A DNA stretch of 62,669 bases from a virus: IMG/VR virus record IMGVR_UViG_3300017593_001448, positions 1 to 62,669 of that record, one strand, 5' to 3'. A model generated the notes under the pieces. The model made no database searches. It was not told where the DNA came from and worked only from the letters and a program-made list of their open reading frames with translations. Below are positions 8,108 to 62,247 of this stretch, piece by piece. Position 1 is the first letter of the stretch. Every line of letters starts with the position of its first letter. The translations under genes were made by a program, and so were the position numbers.

Positions 8108-9261
8108 GCCTCTCCTCCTGTCTCCCCAGTGTCTATCACAAATACCTTTCTGCTCGCTGAATCATTGAGCTTCCCAACATTCCCGTATCTCACAAACACG
8201 TGATCGGGCAGTTCTGGTTGCCCGTTCCATAGCAACCCGATCAATTTCCCACCTGGCAGTTCAGGGGAATAGCAGGCCGCGTATAGCTTTCTCTTCTTCT
8301 CCACTTTCCTCCAGTCCAACCTCTCGCCTATCGCATAGTCTAACATAAACCCCGTGATGTCTTTCCTTGGCCCCAACTTCGCCGTGTACATGTGGTCAAA
8401 CCCGCCCGAGAGCCTTGTTGCCGTCTCCAGCACCACCCATCCATACCTCGGATCATTGATGAGATCCAGCTTGAACGGCCCCTCGGTTACTCCCAGGGCC
8501 TTAGCATACTCGCTCGCGATCTCCTCTATCTCATCATCCGCTCTCCCTGGGTTCACATGCCCGGCTTCCACTCCCGGCCTGTGGAAGTATCGCTCGGCCA
8601 CGTTAATGACCCTGGCCTCCCCATCCACAATGAAAGTATCCACAGCGATCTCTGGGCCTGATAGCAGCTCCTCGACCAGTATCCTGTTATCATAGCGATT
8701 CGCTTTCCTCGCCCTCTCAATTGCACCCGGGAGATCTTCCTTCTTCCTTACGATTGTCATCCCTCGGGAGCCAGAATTGTCCGCCGCCTTTATGACACAG
8801 GGTTGGGCGCGAGAGAAGTATTTATTCCAATCCTTCCATACTTTCTCCGCAGTCATCCCGGGGCCGACCACGAGGAACCAAGGGTGGTTCTGAATATATG
8901 GGTTCGTGAGAAGTCGCATATTCACCTTGTTGGCTGCTTTGGCGGCCGCGTTCAGGGAGCAAGCTCTCAGCCCCAACCTCTCAGCTAACGCGCTTACAGT
9001 CACCCCGACATCAGCGGCAACTGTAAGCACGCCTACAATCTCCAAGCTCAACACTTCAGCCAATCTCAGATGCCCATCGATATCATATGTGCTCACATTA
9101 AAGAACGCGTCTGCCATCCTCGCGCCGGGGCAATATGGGTTCCCATCCGTCACCAGAGCCTTTAGCCCTCTTCTCTTAATCTCCTCTATCATGGGGAGCT
9201 GCATCTCCCCGCCGCCCACGAGCCATACCCAGGGAGATTTACCATGACTATCCGAAGTCAT
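8032..9261 (-). CDS. ATP-grasp carboxylate-amine/thiol ligase family protein
   Basis: This 409-residue protein has a pre-ATP-grasp N-domain (WLVGGGEMQLPMIEEIKRRG), the glycine-rich ATP-binding segment KAADNSGSRGM and later acidic metal ligands (ETATRLSGGFD). It resembles the ATP-grasp proteins found in SpsF/SpsG/NeuB sugar clusters, where the substrate is uncertain. The ATG at 9261 overlaps the stop of the SpsG-like gene (ATGA), showing translational coupling. It could ligate an amino acid or acyl group to a sugar, but that is inference. Confidence 0.75.
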   Translation of the reverse strand: MTSDSHGKSPWVWLVGGGEMQLPMIEEIKRRGLKALVTDGNPYCPGARMADAFFNVSTYDIDGHLRLAEVLSLEIVGVLTVAADVGVTVSALAERLGLRACSLNAAAKAANKVNMRLLTNPYIQNHPWFLVVGPGMTAEKVWKDWNKYFSRAQPCVIKAADNSGSRGMTIVRKKEDLPGAIERARKANRYDNRILVEELLSGPEIAVDTFIVDGEARVINVAERYFHRPGVEAGHVNPGRADDEIEEIASEYAKALGVTEGPFKLDLINDPRYGWVVLETATRLSGGFDHMYTAKLGPRKDITGFMLDYAIGERLDWRKVEKKRKLYAACYSPELPGGKLIGLLWNGQPELPDHVFVRYGNVGKLNDSASRKVFVIDTGETGGEAWTNARRKAQALEAVYASGMVVPLR

Positions 9262-10004
9262 AGCCTTCTCTCCAGCTCCTCTATTAGAGTCCAGCATCCG
9301 ATACCGTTCAACCTGTTCTCGTTCCTCCCTCTCCTTTCCAATGCCTTCACTACCTTTCCGATACTGAGTGTTTCCTTCGGGATAATCTTTGCCATCCCCA
9401 TTTTCTCCAACTCATAGGCAGTTGGCTCCAATGCTCCGTCTTTAACGATGATTTGTGGCACTCCTATTACAGCCAACTCAAGTGATACCATGCCGAACTT
9501 TACAATTGCCCCATCTGCCCATAGATGACTACCCCCTGTCCATCCATAAGGGAGGAAGTAGGCGAAATCTCTCCAGGGATAGAGAAAAGCCCGTCTTCTT
9601 CCCGGCAGAGGAAGTTTAGCTATGGCTAAAATCTCTGGCCTGATGAGTGCCCTCTCTACGCCCCCTATCCATTTCTCGCTTGGTTTCCTTGGCAACACTC
9701 CTTGCACGAGGATCAGGTCCCAGAGAGACGGGCTCAGGGGCCTTGACAGGTCAGACTCCCCGGCCAGGTATCCCTTTCTCTTTGCCTTAAGCCCGCTTGG
9801 TATGATCTCCAGTGGGTGATCCAGGAGGAACCAATCCAGTTCTATTCCCGCATCAATTGCATCATCCAACGTTGCCGTATCATCGTCGTTCCAGAATACC
9901 GTGTGCCCCGCGCCTCTGAGCACGCTCACAAGCCCTCGACTTCTGTAATAATGACCCCAGCCGTACTTCTCTCCTTTAGCGGCAGAATAAATTCCTATTT
10001 TCAT
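9258..10004 (-). CDS. SpsG/PseG-like UDP-sugar hydrolase or GT-B glycosyltransferase
   Basis: The start (MKIGIYSAAKGEKYGWGHYY) carries the GxGHxxR motif of PseG/SpsG, in which a conserved His cleaves the UDP-sugar to free the sugar for NeuB condensation. Length is 248 residues, shorter than the typical 300-340. The later segments FGMVSLELAVIGVP and NRLNGIG match the nucleotide-binding half of GT-B folds. It is coupled to the ATP-grasp gene. It would supply the sugar substrate of the NeuB-like enzyme at 16220-17050. Confidence 0.7.
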   Translation of the reverse strand: MKIGIYSAAKGEKYGWGHYYRSRGLVSVLRGAGHTVFWNDDDTATLDDAIDAGIELDWFLLDHPLEIIPSGLKAKRKGYLAGESDLSRPLSPSLWDLILVQGVLPRKPSEKWIGGVERALIRPEILAIAKLPLPGRRRAFLYPWRDFAYFLPYGWTGGSHLWADGAIVKFGMVSLELAVIGVPQIIVKDGALEPTAYELEKMGMAKIIPKETLSIGKVVKALERRGRNENRLNGIGCWTLIEELERRL

Positions 10005-10012
10005 TTTTCACC

Positions 10013-10408
10013 TCACTGAAGGCCCAACCATATCCAAGAGGGACCTGTGCACTCATCCCGGTTGAGTGCATTCTCCACGAAACGCTTGCGACTCGTCACA
10101 AAGGAAGTTATCTCCACACCATTGGCAACTACCGTGATGGCGAATTTACCGTCGGAAGTCTTAGATATGTAGTATTCCTTTCCGTTTTTACAGGAAAACT
10201 TGTGCCCGTTATGCATGTTCGCCTCGCGAGCCTTCCATGCATCTGCCCCATGACGCTCCACAGCATGGTCCCGGAGCGTCACATCAGGCATGGCGGCGAA
10301 TGGGGCGCTCATAGCAGCGAGAACCACAATGGCGAGGATCAGCAGTAATAAGCAGCCGACTCCATTGTTGGCTTCCTCATCGGGTTTGGTTGGAGCGAAT
10401 AGTCCCAT
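10013..10408 (-). CDS. Membrane-anchored hypothetical protein (131 aa)
   Basis: A short N-terminal segment is followed by one strong transmembrane helix (GCLLLLILAIVVLAAM) and an ~90-residue polar domain with two to three Cys (FSCKNGKEYYISK; DECTG). The ATG follows GGAGAAGAGG. The polar part is probably exposed on one side of the membrane. I do not recognise the family. It is followed by the sugar cluster and preceded by a series of very small membrane genes. Confidence 0.6.
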   Translation of the reverse strand: MGLFAPTKPDEEANNGVGCLLLLILAIVVLAAMSAPFAAMPDVTLRDHAVERHGADAWKAREANMHNGHKFSCKNGKEYYISKTSDGKFAITVVANGVEITSFVTSRKRFVENALNRDECTGPSWIWLGLQ

Positions 10409-10559
10409 CCTCTTCTCCTTTTAGCAAAGAAATACCGTTTTCCATTTCCTTGATTAATGCCTCTATCACTAAACTCGGAGGGGCCTCTCGATTCACGCCC
10501 TCCGCATAAGGAAGCATGTAATCGCGGAGCCACGCTATGAAATCGTCTATTCTTGACAT
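10377..10559 (-). CDS. Hypothetical small protein (60 aa)
   Basis: ATG after GAGGAGGAAACG gives MSRIDDFIAWLRDYMLPYAE, an amphipathic, probably helical protein with no recognised domain. Its 3' end overlaps the next gene by 32 bases, which suggests coupled translation. Confidence 0.55.
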   Translation of the reverse strand: MSRIDDFIAWLRDYMLPYAEGVNREAPPSLVIEALIKEMENGISLLKGEEDGTIRSNQTR

Positions 10560-10571
10560 CGTTTCCTCCTC

Positions 10572-10706
10572 TTAAAAGGGCGGAGCCACATCTGGGATAG
10601 GAGTTCCCTGAATTGCGTCTCTCCACATTCCCATGGTCCCTGCTGTAAGAAGGAAAAGGACAATGAAGAAGAGCAAGAGGAACAACAGAATCGCGAAGTC
10701 TTTCAT
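10572..10706 (-). CDS. Tiny membrane protein (44 aa)
   Basis: ATG with GGGAGGTAAA upstream gives MKDFAILLFLLLFFIVLFLL, a transmembrane helix, followed by a short polar tail ending PDVAPPF and TAA. It lies between two other small genes on the same strand. The ribosome site and hydrophobic pattern make it likely to be real, with function unknown. Confidence 0.5.
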   Translation of the reverse strand: MKDFAILLFLLLFFIVLFLLTAGTMGMWRDAIQGTPIPDVAPPF

Positions 10707-10707
10707 T

Positions 10708-10803
10708 TTACCTCCCGGGTGGTGGTCTAAAGAATATATCATATAGGAGCGAGAATATGAGCGAGATCACTATGATCAATAAGAGGGTTCCAATTATCTC
10801 CAT
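10708..10803 (-). CDS. Tiny membrane protein (31 aa)
   Basis: The ORF MEIIGTLLLIIVISLIFSLL continues to RPPPGR and a TAA just ahead of the next small gene. One membrane helix. The ribosome site is weak, and its start lies within the last codons of the 10794-11066 gene, so coupling is assumed. Three small membrane proteins in a row here is notable. Confidence 0.4.
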   Translation of the reverse strand: MEIIGTLLLIIVISLIFSLLYDIFFRPPPGR

Positions 10804-11066
10804 CGCTTCATCCCGAAATAGTAGTGTCCTCCGCGTTCCGACTTCTTCCAGTGCAGGGCCCAGAAGAGATGGTTTCTCCTTAGCGCCTCAATGATCTCCT
10901 CATTTCCGGACCATCCGGCTGTGGAGAGCCCGAGCTCGTCTCCACTTAGCTCAAAGTACCCATCTTCCGCGTATCTCCATAGCCCTCTGATGAACTCTAT
11001 GAGCCCTTGGGCATCGGAGACATCCCATTTAGCTATTCTCTCTAGTTCCTCTTCCGTCGGGTACAT
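10794..11066 (-). CDS. Hypothetical protein (90 aa)
   Basis: Start ATG 11066 (MYPTEEELERIAKWD) follows GGTGAGGAG. The protein is acidic and aromatic-rich (GLWRYAEDGYFELSGDELGL) with no recognised motif. Part of the minus-strand run 10.0-12.6 kb of small phage genes of unknown role. Confidence 0.55.
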   Translation of the reverse strand: MYPTEEELERIAKWDVSDAQGLIEFIRGLWRYAEDGYFELSGDELGLSTAGWSGNEEIIEALRRNHLFWALHWKKSERGGHYYFGMKRWR

Positions 11067-11070
11067 CTCC

Positions 11071-11655
11071 TCACCCCGGGTAGAATTCAGAATGCCAAGT
11101 GATCTCATCTCCAGATATGATAATGGCATCCGGGCAATGAAGGATAATGGGGTCCTCGTGAGTAGTTTTGTAGTCTATCTCCTCACCGTATTTCCTTGTC
11201 ACTACCCCTCTTGCCTCTGCGATGTTCTGGGCCAAGGCCATGATCATCTTAGATGGCATCTGCCAAATGTATATCTTGGGCCCGCTCTCTTTCTTCCAAC
11301 GGGAGAAGAGCTCGCCCTTGATCGCCTCGAAGCGCTTGGCTGTCTCCAATTCCTCTTTGTCAGGCTCTCCGTTGACCAAGGTGACGGCGGGCTTCCCATT
11401 CAGCATATTTACGGTCGCGCTTTCTCCTGCGCCATCGAAGGCGGTGCCCATTCCTTGAAAATAGGCGACAAAGGGGATCTTCTTCTCCGCCAAGCTTGCA
11501 AGAGCAACCATCTTCAGGTGAGGGTAGGTGAGGATGCAATGCCCATCCCTAAACTCCTGTATTGGCCTCTCAGGGAACAGCTCAAGGGCTTGTCTTAGAT
11601 CGCTCTCTCCCACGTGGAGAACTAACTCTATGTTCTCAGTTTTAGTTATAGCCAT
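11071..11655 (-). CDS. Hypothetical protein (194 aa)
   Basis: The chosen start is ATG 11655 (MAITKTENIELVLHVG) behind GAGGATTGAG, immediately after the upstream stop. The protein has alternating strands and helices without a motif I recognise. A middle section carries GMGTAFDGAGES, and a C-terminal segment FYPG ends it. Confidence 0.5.
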   Translation of the reverse strand: MAITKTENIELVLHVGESDLRQALELFPERPIQEFRDGHCILTYPHLKMVALASLAEKKIPFVAYFQGMGTAFDGAGESATVNMLNGKPAVTLVNGEPDKEELETAKRFEAIKGELFSRWKKESGPKIYIWQMPSKMIMALAQNIAEARGVVTRKYGEEIDYKTTHEDPIILHCPDAIIISGDEITWHSEFYPG

Positions 11656-11656
11656 C

Positions 11657-12022
11657 TCAATCCTCGTATCCGAATAGCTCAGTAGGCCATCCATCTGACC
11701 GTTTGGCCCCCTGGCGTGTCTTTACCTTGCCGACAGTCAGGATGTCGCCATATTCGGAGATCACGACCGCATCGTCTGGCATCTCGGGATCGTTCACGAT
11801 CACCACAGATTCTTTCCCATTCCAGTATGTGCGCAGAGGGCATTTCACATCATCTTCCCACTCATAGAGAAGGTGGGCAAACCTCTTCACCTCACACTCT
11901 GGCACTCGAAGCTCGCCCACCTTTTCCCCTCTCATCCAAATGCCGATGATCTTATGGTCACCATCATCTTTGACTTCAAGATGGGTAATCGGGGGCGCAA
12001 GACGATAGTAGCTTGTGCTCAC
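11657..12022 (-). CDS. Hypothetical protein (121 aa)
   Basis: Starts with GTG after GGAGAGTAAGCA (MSTSYYRLAPPITHLEVKDD). The rest is a beta-rich, acidic sequence with no recognised domain. It lies two bases upstream of the next gene on the same strand. Confidence 0.5.
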   Translation of the reverse strand: MSTSYYRLAPPITHLEVKDDGDHKIIGIWMRGEKVGELRVPECEVKRFAHLLYEWEDDVKCPLRTYWNGKESVVIVNDPEMPDDAVVISEYGDILTVGKVKTRQGAKRSDGWPTELFGYED

Positions 12023-12048
12023 TGCTTACTCTCCTATCAAATCTTTCG

Positions 12049-13010
<962 letters not shown>

Positions 13011-13119
13011 ACGTGAAGAGTGCTCCCGATTAGTTTACTTGCAATTTCCCTTGGCCAGAGGACTTTACTGACTGTGTATGGATGCTTTGTCCCAGTCTCG
13101 GGAATTGCTCCCCTATTGC

Positions 13120-13440
13120 AGGTTGATTCTTGTAAGTAACAGATCCCATTCTAGCTCTCATAAGGGCATGAGCTGACTGCCGGGTGAAGTGGTCCTGCTT
13201 CGCCTTCGCCAGGTTCCGGCAATCAGCCCCCAGTGGCCCGGGTCGGATTCGAACCGGCTTGTGCTCCACTAGCAGCCACGGTCTGCCGGAGCGTTAGGTC
13301 GCCGTGTTACCGCCCCGCGTGTCCCACCACGCCGCCCGGGCCATACATGGGCTGACTGACGCTTCCCACCAGCTGGCATCTTTCAAAGAATCAGCGCCAG
13401 GCAGCCCATTTACCGGGCTGAGCCATACGCACCCGCTTCG
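13120..13440 (-). ncRNA. Structured noncoding RNA region, minus strand
   Basis: No gene fits here. Read on the minus strand, several strong stems follow each other: CAGCCC/GGGCTG with a 7-base loop, CTGGC/GCCAG enclosing TCTTT/AAAGA, the tRNA-like element at 13234-13342, an 11-bp stem CTGATTGCCGG with CCGGCAGTCAG, and AGCTCAT with ATGAG. The dense pairing suggests a structured RNA rather than chance, but I cannot assign it to a known class. Confidence 0.45.
13234..13342 (-). tRNA. tRNA-like element (atypical, 109 nt)
   Basis: On the minus strand a perfect 7-bp acceptor-like stem (GGCCCGG with CCGGGCC) closes a region whose 3' part is a T-arm-like sequence GGTTCGAATCC. The length exceeds even tRNAs with long variable arms, no CCA is encoded (CTG follows the discriminator A), the T-stem has one mismatch, and no standard anticodon loop is obvious. 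A 5-bp CACGG/CCGTG stem encloses 20 bases. It may be a degenerate tRNA, an intron-containing one, or another tRNA-mimicking RNA. Confidence 0.35.
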
Positions 13441-13628
13441 CTTGAGGAATTTTCCGGCAACCAGCCCGGTTTCTCCCTTAAGTCAAATCTCTCCCAGTAG
13501 AGTTTAACCCCGAATTCCTTTGCCAATCCTCTTAGTTCTTTCGCTTCCTCTGGGAATAGTATACCTTGTTTTAGCAGGCTCAGAAAACGCATTCCCTTCT
13601 GAACAAGTAGATCATCTCCCTTCCCCAT
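13410..13628 (-). CDS. Hypothetical small protein (72 aa)
   Basis: ATG 13628 follows AGGAGACTAG and gives MGKGDDLLVQKGMRFLSLLK, with a largely helical, charged sequence after it. It overlaps the end of the methyltransferase gene by 49 bases and its own last codons run into the structured RNA region. No family recognised. Confidence 0.45.
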   Translation of the reverse strand: MGKGDDLLVQKGMRFLSLLKQGILFPEEAKELRGLAKEFGVKLYWERFDLREKPGWLPENSSSEAGAYGSAR

Positions 13629-14383
13629 ACTAGTCTCCTGTGCAGCCAACCATAGAGCTTGAAGATCCGAGGGCCAACGCGTCTCTCCAGTCTCAGTCTC
13701 GCTAAGTGGCACTTTCTCCCAAGCTCATCGTTCCCACGGTAATCAAAGCCGAGCAGGATGAACAGCTCCATAGGAAACGTCGCCCCGCGATAGACGGCTG
13801 TATAGCCGAAGAGCTTGAACAATGTCACCAGGCTTGCAGGAGTGAAATAGTTCCAGTGCCAGCGAGAAATGAACCAGTCCCCTCCCACTTTCCGTTGAAG
13901 AGGGTTGAACTCATTCGGCACAACCACCAGGATCTCCCAAGGCTTCCAGATTTTTAGCTTCTCCTCCAGGAACTTTCTTGGGTTTCGGATGTGTTCTAAC
14001 ACAAGAGCCATTCTTACAACGTCGAATTGCTTGTTCACCTTGGGGTGTTCTGGGTGGTATATCTTGGCTGACATTATCGCATTTCGACGGAGGTAGCGAG
14101 AGATCTCTGCCCCAAGTGCGTGTACTCCCTTCTTCCGCCGTAGGAAATTCACGAACCACCCAATGCCAGCGCCATAGTCAAGGACTTCTTTCACGGGCCT
14201 CATGAGCTCCCAGTTGAACTCGTAGTATGGATCCCAGAGCCCGGCTACATTTTCCTTGATCTCCTTGGTCAACCATTCCTCACTCTGGAACCCATCCTCT
14301 AAGTATTCCTCCTCGCTTACTCCTCCCTCTCTCAGCTGAAATAATCCATACTCATCTTGTATCAAGTCAGCTATCTTCGGCAT
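13580..14383 (-). CDS. Class I SAM-dependent methyltransferase
   Basis: In 267 residues, motif I is VLDYGAGIGWFVNFL, followed by EISRYL and FDVVRMALVLEHIRNPRKFL, the pattern of methyltransferase_11/UbiE-like enzymes acting on small molecules or sugars. The region VVPNEFNPLQRKV is also typical of sugar-cluster methyltransferases. The start chosen is ATG 14383 (MPKIADL); an in-frame ATG at 14401 is also possible. Its position beside the cupin, aminotransferase and NeuB genes points to sugar O- or N-methylation. Confidence 0.75.
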   Translation of the reverse strand: MPKIADLIQDEYGLFQLREGGVSEEEYLEDGFQSEEWLTKEIKENVAGLWDPYYEFNWELMRPVKEVLDYGAGIGWFVNFLRRKKGVHALGAEISRYLRRNAIMSAKIYHPEHPKVNKQFDVVRMALVLEHIRNPRKFLEEKLKIWKPWEILVVVPNEFNPLQRKVGGDWFISRWHWNYFTPASLVTLFKLFGYTAVYRGATFPMELFILLGFDYRGNDELGRKCHLARLRLERRVGPRIFKLYGWLHRRLVWGREMIYLFRRECVF

Positions 14384-14999
14384 ATCTTCCCGTCCCTTCA
14401 TCAATAGGCTTCTCGGGCAATTCCTTCGCTGTATAGGCCCACACATAGCGGATGTAACATCCCGGAGCCGCTGTCACGGCATGGAGCCCAGGCCTGATCC
14501 TGAGGACTTGACCGTCTCTTACCTTCTCAATCGCCCCATTCCCACTGGAGAGCAGAAAGCCAATTGGCTCGTCCAGCCAATTCTCGGAATAATCTAAGAA
14601 AAATAGGAATTTTTCCTCAAACCCTTCAGGCCATTTTCCATTTCTCTCAAAATGGTGTGGAGGAAATGAACTCCAGCCCGAGAGATTGATCGTCAGACCT
14701 GCCCGGAAGCCATCCAAGACTTCCGGGGGGGCTTGATAGACCACGCGGCTGAGATGCGGCCCATAACCGTTCACGTATTTTGGATTTACCATGAACTCAG
14801 GGGAAATCCTTGGTTTCCCGGAGAAAGGTTTCTCGAGGAAGGCTAAGACATCATTCTCCCTCACGGCGACTTCTCGCACGCGGTTGAATGCCTGCATGAG
14901 TACTGGTTCGTGGGTTGAGGCAAGTCTGGGTTCTCTGATGATCACGCCTGAGTACACATTCGCGATTACCCTATTTGGCCCGGAGACGATCTTTATCAT
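14367..14999 (-). CDS. IolB/KduI-like cupin isomerase
   Basis: The segment GWSSFPPHHFE resembles the metal-binding SSxPPHxH motif of IolB (5-deoxy-glucuronate isomerase), and the remainder is a bicupin-like beta fold (GQVLRIRPGLHAVTAAPG). At 210 residues it is shorter than IolB (~270). No inositol pathway lies nearby. It sits between an aminotransferase and a methyltransferase in the sugar cluster, so it may isomerise or bind a sugar intermediate. GGAGGTGAGAAG precedes the ATG. Confidence 0.6.
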   Translation of the reverse strand: MIKIVSGPNRVIANVYSGVIIREPRLASTHEPVLMQAFNRVREVAVRENDVLAFLEKPFSGKPRISPEFMVNPKYVNGYGPHLSRVVYQAPPEVLDGFRAGLTINLSGWSSFPPHHFERNGKWPEGFEEKFLFFLDYSENWLDEPIGFLLSSGNGAIEKVRDGQVLRIRPGLHAVTAAPGCYIRYVWAYTAKELPEKPIDEGTGRYAEDS

Positions 15000-15003
15000 C
15001 TTC

Positions 15004-16233
15004 TCACCTCCCTCTGAAGAGAACTACCGGCTTGTGGCTTCCATCTCCATTCATCTCGATCTCGTGAAGAACCTGCGATGCCAGCTTCGCAGTTCGATTG
15101 ACATCTCTCAGCTCATGCATTGGGGTAGGGAAATTAGGCCGATTCATCAGTATCCCGTTTTTCTTCATGAGGTAGATGAATTGTCCCTTTTGCTCATCCG
15201 TCTCGAATTCAATCAGGGATCTCTCAGGATCCCCTCTCACGGAGAAGAAGGGGAATTCCTCGGAGACCTCGCTGAGCTGTCTGATCAGCTCTATCCCTAT
15301 CATTTGAATGTGTTCCAGCTTTTTACGGTCCATTGTCTTCAGGGTTGCAATTCCGGCGGCCAAGGAGAGCGCGTCTCCAAAGGTTGTCGAGCTGATGAAC
15401 ACGGGATCGGAGCGGGAGAACCAACTTCCCAAAGCAGCGGGGAAAACCATGCAAGAGATGGGAAGCCCGTTCCCGAATCCCTTTGCAAAGCAGAGGATAT
15501 CGGCCTGGGATTCCAGCCTCTCACAGTACCCCGGAATACCGTAACGGAACCCGGTTACCACTTCATCCAGGATCAAGAAGGCGTCATGAGCATAGCAATA
15601 TTCCCTCAACGCCTCGAAGCTCGCCGGATCGAACTCAAGGGGAATCTCTACCACCACAGCCGCGGGGTTTAGGAAGCGATTGACCTTGGTGATCTCCTCG
15701 ATGCTTCCCAGGTTCATGATCCCTCCCTTGGACACGCCCCATCCTGGCCTTTGTCCCGCGATGTACCAGTCATGCCAGCCGTGGTATCCAAAAGAGAGGA
15801 CCAGTTCCCTTCTCGTCACTGCCCTCGCCAGACGCACAGCCATGTCCAGAGCGTCAGAGCCTGTTTTCCCGAAACGCACCATGACATCTTCCCGGCTTGA
15901 CGCCCCATCGATGTATGGGAAGCAGAGCTCTGCCATCATCCTGCCCAATTCCCATTCATAGAGATGCGGCAGGGAGAAGCCAAAGCAGTCATGTGTATCT
16001 CCTACCAGCCTTCGGAACTCTCGGGTCCATTCCGGGTGGTGGTAGCCAAAGAGATTTGCTCCCAAGCCTGAAACCCAGTCCAGAAACCATCGCCCCTCCT
16101 GATCCCTCACATATCCACCCTGTCCCTCGACGAGGAGGGTTGCTTCTTCACCCTCTTTCCATCCCCACATTCTTCCGTCCTTGGAGAATGTGGCGGCTGC
16201 GGGAAGAATACCGTGAAAATCAGCCCATCTCAT
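15004..16233 (-). CDS. Class III (GSA-like) PLP aminotransferase
   Basis: This 409-residue enzyme shows the fold-type I pattern of glutamate-1-semialdehyde aminomutase relatives: FGKTGSDALDMAVRLAR, YHGWHDWY, the cofactor-binding ILDEVVTGFR and the Schiff-base Lys in CFAKGFGNGLPIS. It overlaps the NeuB-like gene by 14 bases. GSA-type aminotransferases recur in nonulosonic acid and surface-sugar clusters, where they aminate a keto-sugar. This is the likely role here. Confidence 0.85.
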   Translation of the reverse strand: MRWADFHGILPAAATFSKDGRMWGWKEGEEATLLVEGQGGYVRDQEGRWFLDWVSGLGANLFGYHHPEWTREFRRLVGDTHDCFGFSLPHLYEWELGRMMAELCFPYIDGASSREDVMVRFGKTGSDALDMAVRLARAVTRRELVLSFGYHGWHDWYIAGQRPGWGVSKGGIMNLGSIEEITKVNRFLNPAAVVVEIPLEFDPASFEALREYCYAHDAFLILDEVVTGFRYGIPGYCERLESQADILCFAKGFGNGLPISCMVFPAALGSWFSRSDPVFISSTTFGDALSLAAGIATLKTMDRKKLEHIQMIGIELIRQLSEVSEEFPFFSVRGDPERSLIEFETDEQKGQFIYLMKKNGILMNRPNFPTPMHELRDVNRTAKLASQVLHEIEMNGDGSHKPVVLFRGR

Positions 16234-18103: not shown

Positions 18104-21100
18104 ATGAGGGAAGCTGCGCTTGCTTACTTGGTGAGGGATGGGAAAATCTTGTTAGTTCAGCGGAAATTCCCTCCTCGTAAATGGTCCCCTCCTGGTGGGT
18201 ATGTTGAAGAAGGGGAAACTCCGGAAGAGGCGGCCAGGCGCGAGTCGGAGGAAGAAGCAGGCATTCAGCCCGGCAGGTTGATTCGAAGGCTCCCGGACTG
18301 GAAGGGGATTCACCAGTTCTTGTTCTCTGTGCCCTCCGATGCAAAGCCGAGAGCTGGAGAGGAAGTCTTTCACACGCGTTGGTTTCCATTGAGCGAACTG
18401 GATGAGGTGGATATGTCTCCTGATCCTTCTGAGGTCTTGCCTCTTTTGAAGGCTCAATTCAGGGAGAAGGAGCTCTCTGAATTACTCGAAGAGCTTCCCG
18501 AAGAGGTGGTGATCATCCCCGACTTCCTCTCCGTCTCCGGCGGATTTGTCTACGCCTCTGACCGGGAGCCGAACGACATTGACTTGATCACACGCGCTTT
18601 TTACCTTCTTCCGGAAGGGGCCCGGCTCAAGCTTCAGCGGATGTTCGGGGCTCTTGCAAAGGTTCCTGTCCATTGGGTGCCGGAAGAGGTCGGACCCATC
18701 TGGGCATATGCTCCGTTCTATGATCTGGTTGCTCGCAAGAAGAGGAAGATCGAGATCCGTGAGCTTCAAGAGCCGGAGATTGACGCCCTTCTCTACAAGG
18801 CAGTCGAAATCCATGACGCTCGCAAGATCAAGCCTGGGAAGCCCATTGCTCACTATCACACCGGCGGTGAATTCTACACGGGCGACGAGGATGCGCTCTG
18901 GGACAAGTGGGTGTCCAGGGCATTGGATCATGGAACAAAGGTTCTAGTCCAACAGAAGTTCGACGGATATAGATTTATTTGTGAAAGATGGAACGATCAT
19001 CTTGCTGTCTTCTCCGACAAGGGCTTTGATCGCTCGAAAGTCTTTCCTGGGCTGAAGGACGCGCTTCCTCCCGGCGAGTACATCATTGACACGGAGTTCA
19101 TGCAGCTTAACAAGCCAGGTGGCGAGCCAGTTCAGCGCTGGGAGATGGCATGGATGGGAGGGGGAGACGAGCCGCCTGATCCGTTCCCTCCTATTCGCAT
19201 TGGCATTCATGACATCATGTGGCTGAACGGGAAGAACGTCGCCCTTGAGCCATATACCAAGCGCCTTGAGCTGCTCCATAAGCTCTTTCCTAAGCCCTAT
19301 CGCAAGGGCAAATACGAGTTCAAAGTTGCTGAAACCAAGGTCGTCACGGATCGCAAGTCTCTCGATGAGGCCCTTCAATGGGCGAAGACTCGCCCTGGGT
19401 CAGAGGGCGCGATGCTCAAGTATGCTGACTTCATCTACCAGCCTAAGACGATCGCGGAGGTGGCAAAGTACAAGAACGCGATCGAGGTTGATTGCGCGAT
19501 TATCGGCTGGAGGAAGGTCATCGCGGGGAAACCTGCCCACGAGCATTGGACCAGAGAGGAAGCCTTCAAGCATCTGAAGGAGCAGCTTGCCAAGTCAAAC
19601 ACTTACATCTTCCGCGTCGCGATCAAGGATGGAGACAAGTGGGTTCCTCTCGAGGCGGACAAGAAGCTGACGGCCAGGGACCTCAAGCTCGATTGGGATG
19701 AGGAGAGGCAGCGATGGGTGGGGACAGATGATCCCAAGCTCTGGCATATGTGCCCAGGTTTCCCTCAGCGGAAAGAGGGCGAGTACGCGTATGCTAACAC
19801 TTATGCCCTCCGCGTGGATCCGGGAGTTCTCAAGTGTGGTCTTGTGATCACCGTTGCCCCGGTGAAGTTCAGGCCCTTTAAGAAGGATGATGGGTCCATT
19901 GGGTACGCCTGGATGTTCCCACGGGCTAAGAACCTGAAGTTCAACAAAGCCCCTGTCGCTCAGCTCAAGAATGTCCTGAGGGCGTTTGGTAATCCCACGC
20001 CCGAGGAGAAGGCCGAGAAGAAGGTCCCTCCATCCGGCCCCAGGAATGCGAGACTGGTTATCATCGGGGATGGACCAGGGAGAACGGAAGAGGAAACTGG
20101 CATCCCATTCTCTGGTCCTTCAGGGAAGTTTCTGAAGGAGATGATGCGCGAGATCGGGTTAGATCCTGATGAGGTTCTATTTGCAAATGTCTATCAAGTA
20201 AGGGCAGACAAGCTCAATAGAGAGGATATTCAGCAACATGGAAAGGAGATTATCAGCTGGCTGGATAGGCTTCCCAACGTCCAATCTGTGCTTGTCCTCT
20301 CTGAGTTAGCTGCTTATGCCTTAACCGGTAAGCGGGAGAGGATCTCAGACCTTCGTTCAAAGAAGCACCATCGGGGAGATTATGATCTCTTCATCTCCTT
20401 CCATCCCGCAGCCGTTATGAGGACAGGACAGAAGAAATCAAAGCTCTATCCCCTTCTCCGCCAGGATCTCATCAGAGCGGCAAAGGCAGCGGGGCTTATT
20501 GAGAAAGCGGAGAGCCCGGTCCAGAACCCAGCTTTCTACCCAGATGAAAACAAGCCTCATAAGTTCGTTGTTCAGGCTCATTGGAGAGGGAGAAGCGTCC
20601 ACTTGGACGTTCGCCTTCAGCTGAACCATATCCTTGAGGGATGGACGGTCGCTGTTCAGACGAAGAACGTTAAAGAGCCCGTCCTCACCTTAGAACAAGC
20701 CAAACAAGCTTTCAAGGATCCTGATAACTGGAAGTTCGACTGGGAGAAGAACGAGATCCCTCCACGGCGAGTGAGGACTACAATTAAGGGGAAGCCAAGG
20801 GAAGTCATCAGGCCGGGTAATCTGCGGGCTTTCCCAAAGAAGGCGGAGATCCCGGAGCAATGGCTTAACATAGAAGGAGCCACCCGCAAGCCTGATCCCG
20901 GTGAAGCTCCTCCTGTTGGAGGGACAAAGAACTATCCAGGCGTGTTTCATATCGTCGACAAGGGGGCTGTGGAGTTTGGGGCGAGAAAACCTTGGTTCTT
21001 CGAGTATTTCTTCCACGGTAAGCGCTTGAGAGGACGATGGGTCTTCCGGGCTGTGCCTAGAAGGGTTGAGAAGATCATCCTCCCACCAGGTGTCAAGGAG

Positions 21101-21337
21101 GAAGAAGCCCGATCTCCATTCTACTGGGTGATGATGAAACCAATCGACCAAACGCCCTATGTTCTCAGCGATGACGCGATCAAGAAAGGTTGGCTGCCAC
21201 CCAAGGGAGTATCAGCCCTACCGAAGGCCATTCGTGATAAGGTGCCAAAGGATCTGCGTTACTGGGAGGTCTCAGGAAAGGAAGCCTTGCAGAGAAGGGA
21301 AGCCCTGGTGAAAAAGCTTAGAGAGGCTCGGGGTTGA
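18104..21337 (+). CDS. Giant fusion: NUDIX, nucleotidyltransferase-like, ATP-dependent DNA ligase, uracil-DNA glycosylase, LigD 3'-phosphoesterase
   Basis: This 1077-residue protein joins at least four DNA-repair modules. Residues ~1-110 are a NUDIX hydrolase with the full box GGYVEEGETPEEAARRESEE (from residue 31). Residues ~135-200 resemble a nucleotidyltransferase (GGFVYASDREPNDIDL). Residues ~245-480 form an ATP-dependent DNA ligase with the adenylation motif KFDGYR (Lys285) and later EGAMLK and KYKN. Residues ~648-800 are a family 4/5-like uracil-DNA glycosylase (VIIGDGPGRTEEETGIPFSG; FHPAAV). Residues ~816-1075 match the LigD 3'-phosphoesterase domain (HKFVVQAHWRGRSVHLDVRL). Together they could sanitise nucleotides, excise uracil, clean 3' ends and seal nicks. 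Its stop overlaps the next gene. Confidence 0.85.
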   Translation: MREAALAYLVRDGKILLVQRKFPPRKWSPPGGYVEEGETPEEAARRESEEEAGIQPGRLIRRLPDWKGIHQFLFSVPSDAKPRAGEEVFHTRWFPLSELDEVDMSPDPSEVLPLLKAQFREKELSELLEELPEEVVIIPDFLSVSGGFVYASDREPNDIDLITRAFYLLPEGARLKLQRMFGALAKVPVHWVPEEVGPIWAYAPFYDLVARKKRKIEIRELQEPEIDALLYKAVEIHDARKIKPGKPIAHYHTGGEFYTGDEDALWDKWVSRALDHGTKVLVQQKFDGYRFICERWNDHLAVFSDKGFDRSKVFPGLKDALPPGEYIIDTEFMQLNKPGGEPVQRWEMAWMGGGDEPPDPFPPIRIGIHDIMWLNGKNVALEPYTKRLELLHKLFPKPYRKGKYEFKVAETKVVTDRKSLDEALQWAKTRPGSEGAMLKYADFIYQPKTIAEVAKYKNAIEVDCAIIGWRKVIAGKPAHEHWTREEAFKHLKEQLAKSNTYIFRVAIKDGDKWVPLEADKKLTARDLKLDWDEERQRWVGTDDPKLWHMCPGFPQRKEGEYAYANTYALRVDPGVLKCGLVITVAPVKFRPFKKDDGSIGYAWMFPRAKNLKFNKAPVAQLKNVLRAFGNPTPEEKAEKKVPPSGPRNARLVIIGDGPGRTEEETGIPFSGPSGKFLKEMMREIGLDPDEVLFANVYQVRADKLNREDIQQHGKEIISWLDRLPNVQSVLVLSELAAYALTGKRERISDLRSKKHHRGDYDLFISFHPAAVMRTGQKKSKLYPLLRQDLIRAAKAAGLIEKAESPVQNPAFYPDENKPHKFVVQAHWRGRSVHLDVRLQLNHILEGWTVAVQTKNVKEPVLTLEQAKQAFKDPDNWKFDWEKNEIPPRRVRTTIKGKPREVIRPGNLRAFPKKAEIPEQWLNIEGATRKPDPGEAPPVGGTKNYPGVFHIVDKGAVEFGARKPWFFEYFFHGKRLRGRWVFRAVPRRVEKIILPPGVKEEEARSPFYWVMMKPIDQTPYVLSDDAIKKGWLPPKGVSALPKAIRDKVPKDLRYWEVSGKEALQRREALVKKLREARG

Positions 21338-58776: not shown

Positions 58777-58805
58777 TTGACAAACCGAGGGGTTTCTGTT
58801 AGATT
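58777..58805 (+). promoter_or_regulatory. Strong promoter for the 58851-59442 genes
   Basis: TTGACA (58777-58782), 17 bases, TAGATT (58800-58805). The spacer carries AAACC GAGG GGTTT, a dyad between the boxes. A GGGGCG/CGCCCC hairpin follows in the leader, then AAAAAAAGGGAGGGT before the ATG. Confidence 0.8.
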
Positions 58806-58850
58806 GAAGGGGGCGAGATACGCCCCAATACAAAAAAAGGGAGGGTGAAA

Positions 58851-59084
58851 ATGTTCACAAGACAACACTACAGGTATCTGGCGGGAGTGCTTAGGGACCA
58901 GTTGGGGTTTCTAAGCGCAGAGGACTATTGGCGGGTGGTGGAAGTCATCGCGGATGCGCTCTCGAGGGACAGTGAGCGTTTTGATCGTTCCCGGTTCCTC
59001 GAGGAATGTTGGGACCGCACCGATTCAGAAAGAACGGAAGTCTTTCTGAAGATGTTTCTGTTCAGGGAGGCGAGCCATGACTAA
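58851..59084 (+). CDS. Conserved small phage protein (77 aa), paralogue of the 444 gene
   Basis: MFTRQHYRYLAGVLRDQLGF and the pattern DSERFDRSRFLEECW match the N-terminal part of the 444-875 product. A strong leader (AAAAAAAGGGAGGGTGAAA) precedes ATG. Unknown function; possibly an early regulator. Confidence 0.7.
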   Translation: MFTRQHYRYLAGVLRDQLGFLSAEDYWRVVEVIADALSRDSERFDRSRFLEECWDRTDSERTEVFLKMFLFREASHD

Positions 59085-59442
59085 AGACGAGATTGAGCGG
59101 CTTTGGAGGGAAGTCTACCTTATAGACGGCCTGGGCTTAGCGGATTTTCTCAATGATCTTATGCCCGGGCCTGATGGGAAAATATGGCGGGCATCCCGGT
59201 ACGGGGAAGTCTTGTACGCCCCGAATGGATGGGCCTTCTCTCGCTGGGACAAATGGCGTGAGAACGTAGCTTACTATTTCGATGCCTTCACTGAAGCTAA
59301 TAATGAAGGACCAAACCTAAGCTACGATGAGGCCCTGGACGTCCTAGTGTTTGCCCTTGCCCGGATAACGCTCCCGCCGGGCGTGAGAGAGGGATGTATT
59401 GAACATATCCCCAAAGGGTACGAGAATTTCCTCTTTATGTGA
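59077..59442 (+). CDS. Hypothetical protein (121 aa)
   Basis: Overlaps the previous gene by eight bases. MTKDEIERLWREVYLIDGLG begins an acidic, Trp-rich alpha/beta protein with no known domain. Cotranscribed with the 58851 gene. Confidence 0.6.
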   Translation: MTKDEIERLWREVYLIDGLGLADFLNDLMPGPDGKIWRASRYGEVLYAPNGWAFSRWDKWRENVAYYFDAFTEANNEGPNLSYDEALDVLVFALARITLPPGVREGCIEHIPKGYENFLFM

Positions 59443-59448
59443 GGCCTT

Positions 59449-59504
59449 AATCTCGTGAGTTTTGTCATAGCTAAATAATTGACTATTGACAAACTCACGA
59501 GATT
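59449..59504 (+). promoter_or_regulatory. Operator-like inverted repeat over the ubiquitin-like operon promoter
   Basis: AATCTCGTGAGTTTTGTCA (59449-59467) is repeated inverted as TTGACAAACTCACGAGATT (59486-59504), separated by 18 bases. The right arm covers the -35 box and spacer of the promoter below, so it is a likely repressor site, or a hairpin in a transcript coming from upstream. Confidence 0.75.
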
Positions 59505-59514
59505 GTGTTAGAAT
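59486..59514 (+). promoter_or_regulatory. Strong promoter of the ubiquitin-like operon
   Basis: TTGACA (59486-59491), exactly 17 bases, TAGAAT (59509-59514), with TGT before the -10. It lies ~50 bases ahead of the ubiquitin-like gene. A GCTGGG/CCCAGC hairpin and AAAAAAAGGGAGGGT follow in the leader. Confidence 0.85.
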
Positions 59515-59565
59515 GAGGGCGGCTGGGAAATCCCCAGCAAAGTCATAAAAAAAGGGAGGGTTCAA

Positions 59566-59793
59566 ATGTGGACAGTTGAGCAGAAAGCGAGCATTATCCA
59601 CATGGACGGTTGGACGGAAGAGGTTGATCCCGGCACCAACTTCCGGGAGGCGGTCACAGGGGCGGCCAAGCGAGACGGGCTCAAGACGTTCCGGGTTATC
59701 CTAAACGGTGAGGTCATTGAGCCTGGGGACGCCCCGGAAACGCTCAAGGCCGGTGACACAGTGGAGATCAAGGTCTATGACGTGGCGGGCTGA
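59566..59793 (+). CDS. Ubiquitin-like (ThiS/MoaD/Prok_Ub) protein, 75 aa
   Basis: The length, the beta-grasp-like pattern (FREAVTGAAKRDG; VILNGEVIEPGDAPETLKAG; DTVEIKVYDVAG) and the exposed C-terminal Gly are those of small ubiquitin-like proteins such as ThiS, MoaD and the PRTRC/Prok_Ub family. The end is VAG rather than the usual GG. It heads an operon with E2-like, E1-like and JAB proteins, which strongly supports a ubiquitin-like conjugation role over sulfur transfer. RBS GGGAGGG. Confidence 0.8.
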   Translation: MWTVEQKASIIHMDGWTEEVDPGTNFREAVTGAAKRDGLKTFRVILNGEVIEPGDAPETLKAGDTVEIKVYDVAG

Positions 59794-59843
59794 TATGCCC
59801 GCCGATCACGGGGCGAGAGTTGACTCTCGCCCCTTTTCTCTTT
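59784..59843 (+). terminator. Tandem hairpins with T-run between the Ubl and E2-like genes
   Basis: GGCGGGC (59784) pairs with GCCCGCC, then GGGGCGAGAGT (59810-59820) pairs with ACTCTCGCCCC (59823-59833), followed by TTTTCTCTTT. As the genes around it form one operon, it is probably a partial terminator that leaves the ubiquitin-like protein in excess over its enzymes. Confidence 0.8.
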
Positions 59844-59855
59844 AGGGAGGGTCAA

Positions 59856-61019
59856 ATGAAAAGATATACTCTCCAGTATCGGTTCGGTGAGGAATATGTC
59901 CTCTTGGCCATGCGAGCAAATAACCGAGTCCCGGCACTGAAGGCCGCCGGGTTCACTTTTGAGCAGGCGGCTGGCTTGGCGGAAGAAGTCGGGCTGCGGA
60001 TGGACAATTCTCCTTACTTGCGACCAGAGACAAGAAGTAAGCTGAATATAGATTTGCTCTGGGACCACGAAAGCTGGGGCTCTGTCGAGGTCCACTTCTC
60101 AATCCAGGAGCAACTTGAGCTCCTGGAAGAGATCAAGAATGCCCAATTCCGCCTGGCGAGAAAGCTGGCGGAACGGGGGGTTTTGATCCTAATCTCTGTT
60201 GAACCAGAAAGCGATTGCCCTCAAGAAGTGCTCGAGAAAATCCTCGAGCTTGGGTTAGGGAAAAATGTAGAGAATGCCATCGAGGCGGTTCTCGCCAGCG
60301 CGCGAGAGGAGAAGCGCGAGCAGGGGGCCTTCTTGGTCACGGGAGATTCAGTTTTTGAGCTAAGATTCCTGGGCAAGACTTCCATTGCTTCCCCTTCAGT
60401 CCTCGCAAAGACTGAAGGGGAGATCAGGGCAGCCGCGGAAGCTGCTCTTCATGCCGCGGGGGAGACGTTGGAGCGCCTTTTCCGATCCGCGATCGATAGG
60501 ATGCGGGAGAGACAGTCGGAGCGCCTGGACCAGTTCTCAGAAAGCGCGGCTTCTCTCGCGGGGATTGATGCCTATGTAGGGCGGTATTACGGTTCCTACC
60601 AGGCCATTCTTCCTTTCCACTACGCCCCTAAGTTCTATAGGAAACACAATCGTAGATACAAGATTCACCCGGACGATCAGAGGTTGCTGGCAACGGATAC
60701 ACACATTCGGGTGACATGGTCGCCCGACGGCCCTTGGTCAATATCCTTGGGCGACGTGGTATCCGGCGAGTGGGAGCCGCTGCGTCACTATCATACGATG
60801 GGCGACTATGACTGCCTAGGGACGTACTCACCAGGCGAGATCAGAAACGCCCAGGATTTGATCCGCGTGAGGGATGAAGTAGAGATTCTACTTCAGGAGA
60901 TTAACTGGGATAGCATAGCAGACAGCGATCCCGCGGATATGCCCCTGACGGCTGAGGAAATTGAGGAACGCATGGAACCCGTGGAAAATACAGGGGAGGG
61001 CGACTTATGGACAACATAA
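59856..61019 (+). CDS. E2-like candidate protein of the ubiquitin-like operon (387 aa)
   Basis: I do not recognise the N-terminal ~230 residues (MKRYTLQYRFGEEYVLLAM; long coiled part AAAEAALHAAGETLERLFRS). The C-terminal region has beta strands (THIRVTWSPDGPWSISLG) followed by LRHYHTMGDYDCLGTYSPG: His311, His313 and Cys320. This resembles the HPx...G..CLG motif around the catalytic Cys of E2 enzymes and prokaryotic E2-like families. Gene order Ubl, this gene, E1, JAB fits an E2. Start ATG 59856 follows AGGGAGGG. The catalytic role is a hypothesis. Confidence 0.6.
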   Translation: MKRYTLQYRFGEEYVLLAMRANNRVPALKAAGFTFEQAAGLAEEVGLRMDNSPYLRPETRSKLNIDLLWDHESWGSVEVHFSIQEQLELLEEIKNAQFRLARKLAERGVLILISVEPESDCPQEVLEKILELGLGKNVENAIEAVLASAREEKREQGAFLVTGDSVFELRFLGKTSIASPSVLAKTEGEIRAAAEAALHAAGETLERLFRSAIDRMRERQSERLDQFSESAASLAGIDAYVGRYYGSYQAILPFHYAPKFYRKHNRRYKIHPDDQRLLATDTHIRVTWSPDGPWSISLGDVVSGEWEPLRHYHTMGDYDCLGTYSPGEIRNAQDLIRVRDEVEILLQEINWDSIADSDPADMPLTAEEIEERMEPVENTGEGDLWTT

Positions 61020-61600
61020 TTCTCCAGAGACAGAGGGAGCTTGATTTGAACACTGACCACCGCTTGTTGATCGTCGGCTGCGGTGGTGTTGGAAGTTGGG
61101 CAGCGATTTTCGCTGCCTTGTCTGGGGTCAAGACCTTGATCTTGCTTGACCCTGATACTCTCGAGCTTCACAATATGAACCGCCTCCCATTCTCGCCCGA
61201 GGATGTGGGGCGGAAGAAAGTGCACGTCTTAAGGGACTATATCGTGGGGTTGCGCCCCGACATAGAGATATATGCGATTCCTGCATCTTTCTCGCCCCTC
61301 GCGCTCTCCAGCTTCTCGATCACAACCGCTATCGACGCAACCGACAACTTACGCGCCCAGAGGGAAGTCTCTCTCTGGGCAGAGGCAAAAGGGGTTAGAT
61401 ATGTGCGTGCAGGATACAATGGCACGCATATAACTGTCTCTGGCCGGGGCCCCGTGTGGGCAACGGAGGACAACCCGGAGGGATATGATATTGTCCCCTC
61501 GTGGGCGGTTCCTGCGGCCATAGCGGGGGCCTTGGCCGTTGCTAAGATAGAAAAGTATCCTTCCCTGGAAGTTTCTAATGACATAGGAGGCTTGAAATGA
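61007..61600 (+). CDS. E1/ThiF-like adenylating enzyme
   Basis: Of 197 residues, GCGGVG (24-29) is the nucleotide-binding loop, LDPDTLELHNMNRL (48-60) matches the DxDxxxxxNxNR motif, and AIDATDN (108-114) the metal/substrate Asp. It would adenylate the Ubl C-terminus. Only one Cys (25, in the loop) is present, so the usual catalytic Cys that forms a thioester is missing. The gene overlaps the E2-like gene by 13 bases and its stop overlaps the JAB gene. Confidence 0.85.
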   Translation: MDNIILQRQRELDLNTDHRLLIVGCGGVGSWAAIFAALSGVKTLILLDPDTLELHNMNRLPFSPEDVGRKKVHVLRDYIVGLRPDIEIYAIPASFSPLALSSFSITTAIDATDNLRAQREVSLWAEAKGVRYVRAGYNGTHITVSGRGPVWATEDNPEGYDIVPSWAVPAAIAGALAVAKIEKYPSLEVSNDIGGLK

Positions 61601-62193
61601 TAATTAACAGAGGTAACACATGGCGAAAAATTAAGCCGGTTGTCCCAAAGGATGAGTATTGGGACTCTGGCATCACAGAGAGTTATGGCGGCTGCGCCAA
61701 GTTGGGCGAGCCAGTCGTGATTGTCTCGTGGGAGGCGCAGAAAAAGGTTCAGACGCTCTGTGAGGCCATGGGCAACACAGAGTGGCTTGCGTATCTCGTG
61801 GGGGCGCAAGAAGGCGCAGGATTCTACATTGCCGACCTGCTAGTCCCCGAACAAGAAGTCACAGCCGCGAGCGTTCACGTAGTCGATCATCCCCCGTTGG
61901 AGAATGTAATTGGTGTATTACATTCTCATCATAACATGGGGAGTTTCTTCTCTAAGACCGACGACGACTTTGTGAACGCAAACCATGCCATTTCGGTCGT
62001 CGTATCAAAGGACGGCTGGAAGGGGACCGCGAGGATTGAAGCGCCCTGTGGCGAGCTAATCCGGTTTCTCGACGTTACCTTTGAGTTCGAGGAGCCGGAA
62101 GTCGAGGGCCTGGACAGGTGGACAGAAGACGCCCTCGGGAAGATCAAAAACCGCATTCTACCTTATGCGCCCCCATTCCTCCCACTAACCTGA
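61597..62193 (+). CDS. JAB/JAMM metallopeptidase (deubiquitinase-like)
   Basis: The zinc motif is complete: Glu62, then HSHHNMGSFFSKTD with His109 and His111, Ser119 and Asp122 (E...HxH-x7-S-x2-D). The fold region GVLHSHH follows a beta strand (NVIGVL). Such peptidases remove ubiquitin-like modifiers or trim their tails. It is the last gene of the operon and is followed by a strong terminator. Confidence 0.9.
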   Translation: MIINRGNTWRKIKPVVPKDEYWDSGITESYGGCAKLGEPVVIVSWEAQKKVQTLCEAMGNTEWLAYLVGAQEGAGFYIADLLVPEQEVTAASVHVVDHPPLENVIGVLHSHHNMGSFFSKTDDDFVNANHAISVVVSKDGWKGTARIEAPCGELIRFLDVTFEFEEPEVEGLDRWTEDALGKIKNRILPYAPPFLPLT

Positions 62194-62211
62194 ACCCCAC
62201 AAGAGAGAACG

Positions 62212-62247
62212 AGAGAGAGGATTCAGACGATCCTCTCTCTTTTTTTT
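62212..62247 (+). terminator. Rho-independent terminator of the ubiquitin-like operon
   Basis: An 11-bp perfect stem (62212-62222 with 62230-62240), loop TCAGACG, followed by a run of eight T. Confidence 0.9.

Follow-up and report, generated by a model that had tools for sequence, protein, structure and literature searches.

The window analysed here, i.e., the whole 62,669-bp stretch of DNA that constitutes the complete virus record IMGVR_UViG_3300017593_001448 (classed as linear), harbors four genes, all on the (+) strand at 59566-62193, coding for a ubiquitin-like protein (Ubl), an E2-like protein, an E1/ThiF-type enzyme and a JAB (JAMM) metalloprotease. We consider it probable that this operon represents a virus-encoded, JAMM-reversible Ubl-conjugation system, in which an E1 lacking the catalytic Cys would charge the E2 directly and which would probably serve DNA replication. 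The record also carries tailed-phage genes (Mu-type portal, tape measure, major head protein and terminase); end repeats were looked for in it, and none was found. The cassette comprises the following features (ORF, open reading frame; aa, amino acids).

59449..59462, (+) strand: left arm of an operator-like dyad, AATCTCGTGAGTTT; perfect 14-bp inverted repeat, arms 28 nt apart.
59491..59504, (-) strand: right arm of the operator-like dyad, overlapping the promoter; inverted-repeat search.
59486..59514, (+) strand: putative sigma-70 type promoter, TTGACA-17-TAGAAT with an extended -10 TG; 11/12, a consensus match only.
59566..59793, (+) strand: Ubl, 75 aa, C-terminus YDVAG; ORF, ThiS match at 0.0015.
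59810..59833, (+) strand: terminator-like hairpin in the Ubl/E2 gap, probable attenuator; 10 bp, 8 G-C, T-rich tail.
59856..61019, (+) strand: E2-like protein, 387 aa, with a window-specific N-terminus, a coiled coil and a C-terminal UBC-like domain.
60501..60974, (+) strand: UBC-like domain, residues 216-373; span aligning to ubiquitin E2s, Z <=6.5.
60786..60815, (+) strand: putative E2 active-site segment H311-Y-H313...C320; HYH/QYH plus C[WL]G across the clade.
61007..61600, (+) strand: E1/ThiF adenylyltransferase, 197 aa, without catalytic Cys; PF00899 and alignment.
61499..61501, (+) strand: codon of Ser165 in a P-S-W motif; residue invariant across the clade and close to where the catalytic Cys was lost.
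61597..62193, (+) strand: JAMM/JAB metalloprotease, 198 aa; PF14464 and motif.
61921..61962, (+) strand: JAMM motif HSHHNMGSFFSKTD (HxH-x7-S-x2-D); motif pattern.
62211..62241, (+) strand: terminator-like hairpin plus T tract that closes the operon; hairpin scan.

The four genes are not a chance set of ORFs. Indeed, their order and strand are identical in 38/38 distinct viruses (the window being one of them; E1 similarity below 90%) that were found by alignment-based scans with E2 and E1 and share the gene order of the window, Ubl-E2-E1-JAB (type A, as distinct from type B, Ubl-E2-JAB-E1); the homologues that the initial annotation expected to travel together thus do so in every one of them. 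Single-protein searches for close relatives in phages and viral contigs returned none, and the family was reached only through JAMM-motif patterns and alignments: a DNA pattern for the motif HSHxxMxxFFSxTD matched at least 120 viral contigs, and a ThiF-type E1 accompanies the JAMM gene in at least 105 of these loci, so that JAMM-E1 gene pairs are common in phages. When 84,980 cellular species genomes were scanned, a first scan was empty and a second gave two contigs with the cassette, one whose length (27,887 bp) and locus coordinates equal those of an IMG/VR contig and one carrying clamp loader, clamp and cassette together; both are taken as viral sequence in metagenome-assembled genomes, and the cassette is carried almost only by viruses. 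The window E1 falls inside the wider type A clade (branch 100/99), the tree leaving its position within the clade unsettled. Two ThiF matches in the phage collection were discarded, one in a Salmonella contig that represents the host thiamine operon and one in an irrelevant MoaA/MoeB-type contig.

As judged from its sequence, the third protein is clearly a member of the E1/ThiF adenylyltransferase superfamily: it matches ThiF (PF00899) at E=1.4e-24, and the best PDB matches of its profile are Uba1, MccB, MoeB and ThiF (1e-15 to 1e-19). The residues R8-Q9, GxGGxG, D48/D50, N56, R59, K71 and D113 are invariant in the 18 type A E1s aligned, and N58 is nearly so. The assignment to the adenylating enzymes made by the initial annotation is borne out by PF00899 and by the adenylation residues, and so is the lack of a catalytic Cys, which extends across the clade. 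The sole Cys of the window E1, Cys25, lies inside the GxGGxG loop; the column of the catalytic Cys holds a Cys in 81/86 non-type-A phage E1s vs. 0/18 type A E1s (Fisher p 5e-16, to be read as a clade-wide difference, the sequences being related and not independent), where it is mostly R or T. ThiF also has a Cys in that column, which we take to correspond to ThiF Cys184, and in the non-type-A phage E1s the Cys sits in a C[ST]xK[HQ][TS] setting that presumably resembles the ubiquitin E1 motif. The features of its alignment indicate that the window protein is not a canonical ubiquitin-type E1.

The 387-aa protein carries the motif H311-Y-H313...D319-C320-x-G322 (HYH-x6-Cys320), so that the residues of the E2-like HxH...CLG signature recognized earlier at Cys320 are present, and they are kept across the clade. 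In the type A E2s, C320, Y312, H313, G322, N350 and S353 are invariant; all of them keep YH..C[W/L]G, and HYH is found everywhere except in one lineage (QYH, L144/L147). No family of the Pfam, NCBIfam and defence-system (PADLOC) libraries was matched by this protein, and a BFVD structure search gave no informative match. The AlphaFold model, built with 19 aligned sequences, has low confidence at the N-terminus, the first part of which is found in the window protein only, and reveals a confident C-terminal domain (residues about 216-373; model confidence, pLDDT, mostly 81-93) behind the coiled coil. The best PDB matches of this model in Foldseek are UFC1 and UbcH7, both weak (E 0.2-0.5); after re-ranking with VIA-align, which re-orders the Foldseek matches, 50/50 of the rows listed are ubiquitin E2s, with Z of 5.7-6.5 over about 120 residues, values below 8 that may mean a common arrangement. 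A second model, that of the E2 domain of the relative L138 (pLDDT 86.7), returned only E2s among its VIA-align rows (Z 5.3-6.4) and exhibits a beta-meander, then HYH/Cys, then a helix, as in UBC, with a Cys-to-helix spacing of 13. The initial annotation would have given up the E2 assignment if the structure predicted around Cys320 lacked an RWD/UBC fold; E2s come top of the re-ranking, and the models favour a UBC (E2) fold for the C-terminal domain, which is not thereby proven. L150 and L186 have a cassette with two E2 genes in a row, of 329 and 248 aa.

A similar motif is found in type B, which occurs widely among crAss-like phages as well as in another group, one that has Sak4 and DnaB genes. 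HxH...C[LYWFM]G occurs in 42/69 large ORFs directly upstream of JAB vs. 3/180 other ORFs of that size, and these three also come from JAB loci. In profile-profile comparisons the type A E2s match the crAss and Sak4-type E2s with E 0.13-0.43, which is not significant, the best local alignment lying at or beside the HxH..C segment; what the two types appear to share is the motif, and homology is not claimed.

The 75-residue length and the VAG end of the putative Ubl, as initially described, are confirmed by the ORF translation. The protein matches ThiS (PF02597) at E=0.0015, a low significance below the cut-off, and its profile matches SUMO chains in the PDB weakly (E 0.02); it shares 32-46% identity with 18 viral relatives, in which the AG tail is conserved, and most Ubls of the clade have a terminal or near-terminal Gly. 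In several aligned relatives the tail extends 1-4 residues beyond the Gly at which the window Ubl ends, and in crAss001 the Ubl gp79 has a long extension past ..KKIKSG; because of these residues past the Gly, processing of a precursor by the JAMM protein is predicted there, and it is not needed for the window Ubl, which ends at Gly. Fusions of crAss-like Ubls to a C-terminal extension after ..SG were also seen at L003 1602-2207, L010 6380-7021 and L191 2432-3109, for which JAMM maturation is likewise predicted. The fourth protein matches Prok-JAB (PF14464) at E=1.2e-6, above its cut-off, and the canonical JAMM residues E62, H109, H111, S119 and D122 are present, in agreement with the peptidase with all metal-binding residues that had been proposed.

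Concerning the organization of the operon, the four ORFs, the promoter, the dyad and the terminator were recomputed and lie where the initial annotation had placed them. Its description of four overlapping genes holds for E2/E1 (13 nt) and E1/JAB (4 nt), the only overlaps, and fails for Ubl and E2, which are separated by a 62-nt gap holding the hairpin at 59810-59833, a feature absent from the initial annotation. All four genes have a strong Shine-Dalgarno sequence, and their codon-position GC resembles that of the phage portal and terminase genes. The promoter is the top scorer in its region; a second strong extended -10 promoter (TTGACA-17-TAGATT, 58777-58805) precedes the two small genes located before the operon. 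No regulon can be inferred, since the operator dyad was not found as a pair elsewhere in the window. A plain hairpin scan of the window gave 6 terminator-like sites vs. 5.6 expected in shuffled sequence, and therefore the significance of the hairpin in the gap rests on the relatives: such a hairpin occurs in the Ubl/E2 gap of 14/19 loci (the window and 13/18 relatives) vs. 17/100 other same-strand gaps of the same loci (Fisher p 2e-6; shuffles give 16/950), with a sequence that differs in each locus. This comparison suggests that the hairpin is probably a conserved device yielding more Ubl than enzyme.

On the basis of these sequence features, the activities of the four proteins (adenylation, E2 charging, conjugation and de-conjugation) might be combined as follows. 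The E1, whose adenylation residues are present, would adenylate the C-terminal Gly of the Ubl, and the Ubl-adenylate would be attacked directly by Cys320 of the E2; such a direct attack appears most likely because the E1 has no catalytic Cys, and MoeB, which hands an adenylate to another nucleophile, offers a model for it. The E2 would then pass the Ubl onto target amines; no E3 was found for the cassette. The JAMM protein, whose residues are intact, might both trim those Ubls that continue past the Gly (between a minority and half of the relatives) and strip the tag from its targets, and the hairpin after the Ubl gene would probably keep the Ubl in excess over the enzymes, as the comparison among loci suggests.

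As for the function of the cassette, in 34/38 distinct type A viruses it lies directly after the clamp-loader and sliding-clamp genes (33 directly, plus L059, which is truncated at its locus and was counted through its duplicate L126). The upstream neighbours are gp44 (AAA, Gp44_lid), gp62 (Phage_clamp_A PF16790, 1.1e-10) and the clamp (phrog_223 processivity factor, 3.8e-8), whose identity was settled via PHROGs, a PDB sequence search for the sliding clamp giving no match; thus T4-type gp44-gp62-gp45 genes accompany the cassette in most relatives. The window is one of the four exceptions; in two others, L171 and L179, the cassette stands beside a RepA-like ATPase, a single-stranded DNA-binding (SSB)-like protein and a Cas4-like nuclease, as read from the sequence. 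Type B cassettes also lie in replication modules, with a primase in crAss-like phages and, in the other group, with AAA_24/Sak4 and a DnaB-type helicase. The recurrence of cassettes in the replication modules of several phage groups makes a role in viral DNA replication or repair, rather than in immunity, the most likely one; for the window phage, in which the cassette adjoins the terminase near the contig end, the link would be by homology only. One might go further and speculate, with little expectation of being right, that a virus-exclusive Ubl pathway with a Cys-less E1 finds its substrates in the phage replisome, chiefly in the sliding clamp encoded beside it in most relatives, as a phage counterpart of PCNA ubiquitylation/SUMOylation, the same logic applying to crAss-like phages.

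Several observations weigh against a replication-linked conjugation system. A sequence-profile search of the E2-like protein vs. the PDB and UBC families matched none of them; HYH and Cys are separated by as few as 2 and as many as about 10 residues, which would also allow a metal site; and Foldseek on the L138 model ranked the E2s low, not first. The tail of the window Ubl is a single Gly (AG) and not GG, and the Ubls of L144/L147, L145/L152, L151, L160/L161 and L177 lack a Gly in the terminal or a near-terminal position. Support for the replication role is lowest in the window itself, where hidden Markov models (HMMs) found no homologue of the clamp or clamp loader anywhere; moreover, early genes often lie together, and the neighbourhood points to no particular substrate.

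The initial annotation suggested counter-defence or superinfection exclusion; here the tag would modify host immune or rival phage proteins, or the JAMM protein would strip host-applied tags. Ubl systems are indeed known in anti-phage defence, as in the conjugation of cGAS in CBASS (cyclic-oligonucleotide-based anti-phage signaling system) according to PMC10097602, or in Bil, which blocked phage assembly as cited in the Borg paper PMC12660748, and the accessory position of the window cassette beside the terminase would suit such a function. However, the cassette is nearly absent from cellular genomes (2/84,980), its placement in replication modules is conserved in most relatives, and a de-conjugating countermeasure would need less than a complete conjugation set that includes a Ubl. 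This explanation is thus not our first choice, and we regard it as unlikely.

It is also quite unlikely, in our opinion, that the 387-aa protein is no E2 but a DNA-replication scaffold binding a metal through HYH..C, in which case the Ubl would either be conjugated by the E1 without further help or remain unconjugated. The H-x-H-x(2-10)-C pattern with its variable spacing resembles a zinc ligand set, and a sequence match to UBC is absent, but the order of elements in the L138 model is UBC-like, with the Cys-to-helix distance given above, and the gene always lies between Ubl and E1.

A sulfur-carrier system, with a ThiS/MoaD-type Ubl, a MoeB-like E1, the JAMM protein as processing enzyme and the 387-aa protein as acceptor or scaffold, could yield a thiolated nucleotide, tRNA or cofactor. 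ThiS/MoaD systems are marked by a C-terminal GG and by linked cofactor genes or a sulfur donor; the window Ubl ends in AG. The E1 without catalytic Cys resembles MoeB, ThiS is the best Pfam match of the Ubl, JAB genes accompany predicted sulfur-transfer operons (PMC1779556), and the lack of a UBC match by sequence would be explained as well. On the other hand, no sulfurtransferase gene turned up among the cassette neighbours scanned, which was neither a full search nor one of every window gene; HYH..C[WL]G is conserved and the structure rows listed are all E2s; and the crAss/Sak4-type E1s carry C[ST]xK[HQ][TS] like ubiquitin E1s. We therefore judge this possibility improbable. That Ser165 (P-S-W) of the E1 acts as an oxyester nucleophile replacing the Cys before the Ubl passes to the E2 is very improbable, since this residue, although invariant in the 18 type A E1s and placed a few residues downstream of the Cys column of related phage E1s and ThiF, does not align with that column and is absent in three near relatives of the clade (L038, L092 and L097).

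Returning to the conjugation system, the features tested in its sequences indicate that the cassette is neither Bil, PRTRC/row 6d nor an E1-E2 fusion. If it functions as proposed above, its mode of action would be like that of these systems. We assume that the row 6d operons of Iyer 2006 correspond to PRTRC. These PRTRC-type operons resemble the window cassette in that a small Ubl ending in Gly, a JAB, a ThiF-type E1 and a Cys-bearing E2-like protein each have a gene of their own (PMC1779556). However, their E2s have no upstream His and a conserved downstream His, whereas the window E2 has HYH upstream of the Cys; their JAB carries a JAB-N domain, in which an Arg and a Trp are conserved, whereas the window JAB has a short N-terminal region; and they include an alpha-helical protein, whereas the window cassette has no fifth gene (PMC1779556). 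The NCBIfam PRTRC scores are far below the cut-off (PRTRC_ThiF 24.4 bits vs. 144.75; PRTRC_A 18.3 vs. 101.8). BilABCD also consists of four genes (Ubl, E2, JAB and E1), but BilA has two Ubl domains and the window cassette one Ubl, BilD, an E1 with IAD/AAD and a Cys domain (Cys417), is pseudodimeric, in contrast to the 197-aa window enzyme without catalytic Cys, and BilB has a CEHH motif instead of HYH...C (PMC11354881). Hence, the relationship with Bil and PRTRC-type systems suggested by the initial annotation holds for the presence of a Ubl/E2-like/E1/JAMM set on a phage, not for membership in either. The CBASS Cap2/Cap3 and 6A/6B systems share the E1/E2/JAB logic in bacteria-phage conflict; in them one polypeptide combines E2 and E1, and no dedicated Ubl is listed for the basic sets (PMC1779556), whereas the window has separate genes and its own Ubl, and the PADLOC E1-E2 matches of window proteins span the E1 part only.

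The crAss-like cassette (crAss001 gp79-gp76; cr128_1; FpV4) shares the Ubl, the HxH...C protein, the JAMM motif HSHxxMxxFFSxTD, the ThiF protein and the location in a replication module. It differs from the window in being of type B, in the catalytic-type Cys kept by its E1 (C330-SYKQT in gp76) and in the extension of its Ubl after ..KSG. Its products are annotated merely as ThiF/metalloprotease or hypothetical. For phages, Iyer 2006 describes only a tail-assembly Ubl with JAB (PMC1779556), and no phage-borne E1/E2/JAB/Ubl operon is described in the jumbo-phage paper PMC7824862; we found no description of such operons in the literature, in a search that left out preprints and most subscription journals, so that an earlier description is possible. 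Bacterial ubiquitin-like systems have mostly been studied as host defences; here the system is carried almost only by viruses, and its position in the genomes leads one to predict a role in replication, so that some viruses may run their own reversible protein tagging during this process. This raises the questions of whether a ubiquitin relay can run without an E1 thioester and whether phages modify replication proteins of their own in the manner known for PCNA in eukaryotes. Cultured phages with related cassettes are crAss001 (Bacteroides intestinalis) and FpV4 (Flavobacterium psychrophilum).

Some other arrangements were observed among the loci. In L089, L099, L101, L104 and L115, a small gene and a protein of about 215-255 aa (cluster c16) are followed by JAB and E1, an arrangement possibly closer to PRTRC. 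In L134, L137, L175 and L190 the cassette genes are interspersed with members of a single gene family (cluster c47, 206-278 aa) on the opposite strand, which resemble mobile insertions and leave the cassette order intact, and L167 keeps E1 and JAB without Ubl and E2, with TnpB-like and HNH-like genes upstream. As regards the rest of the window, two small ORFs at opposite record ends (444-875 and 58845-59442) appear by eye to be diverged copies, on the basis of their N-terminal and FDR.RF patterns. A 1077-aa ORF (18104-21337) matches NUDIX (PF00293, 2.6e-23), ATP-dependent DNA ligase (PF01068, 2e-15) and uracil-DNA glycosylase (PF03167, 8.7e-21), an unusual triple fusion unless it is an assembly error. 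The minus strand of 8035-16233 holds ATP-grasp and class-III aminotransferase genes resembling a small biosynthetic cluster on a phage, and the protein at 22588-23409 matches a head maturation protease and also a PHROG named DNA methyltransferase.

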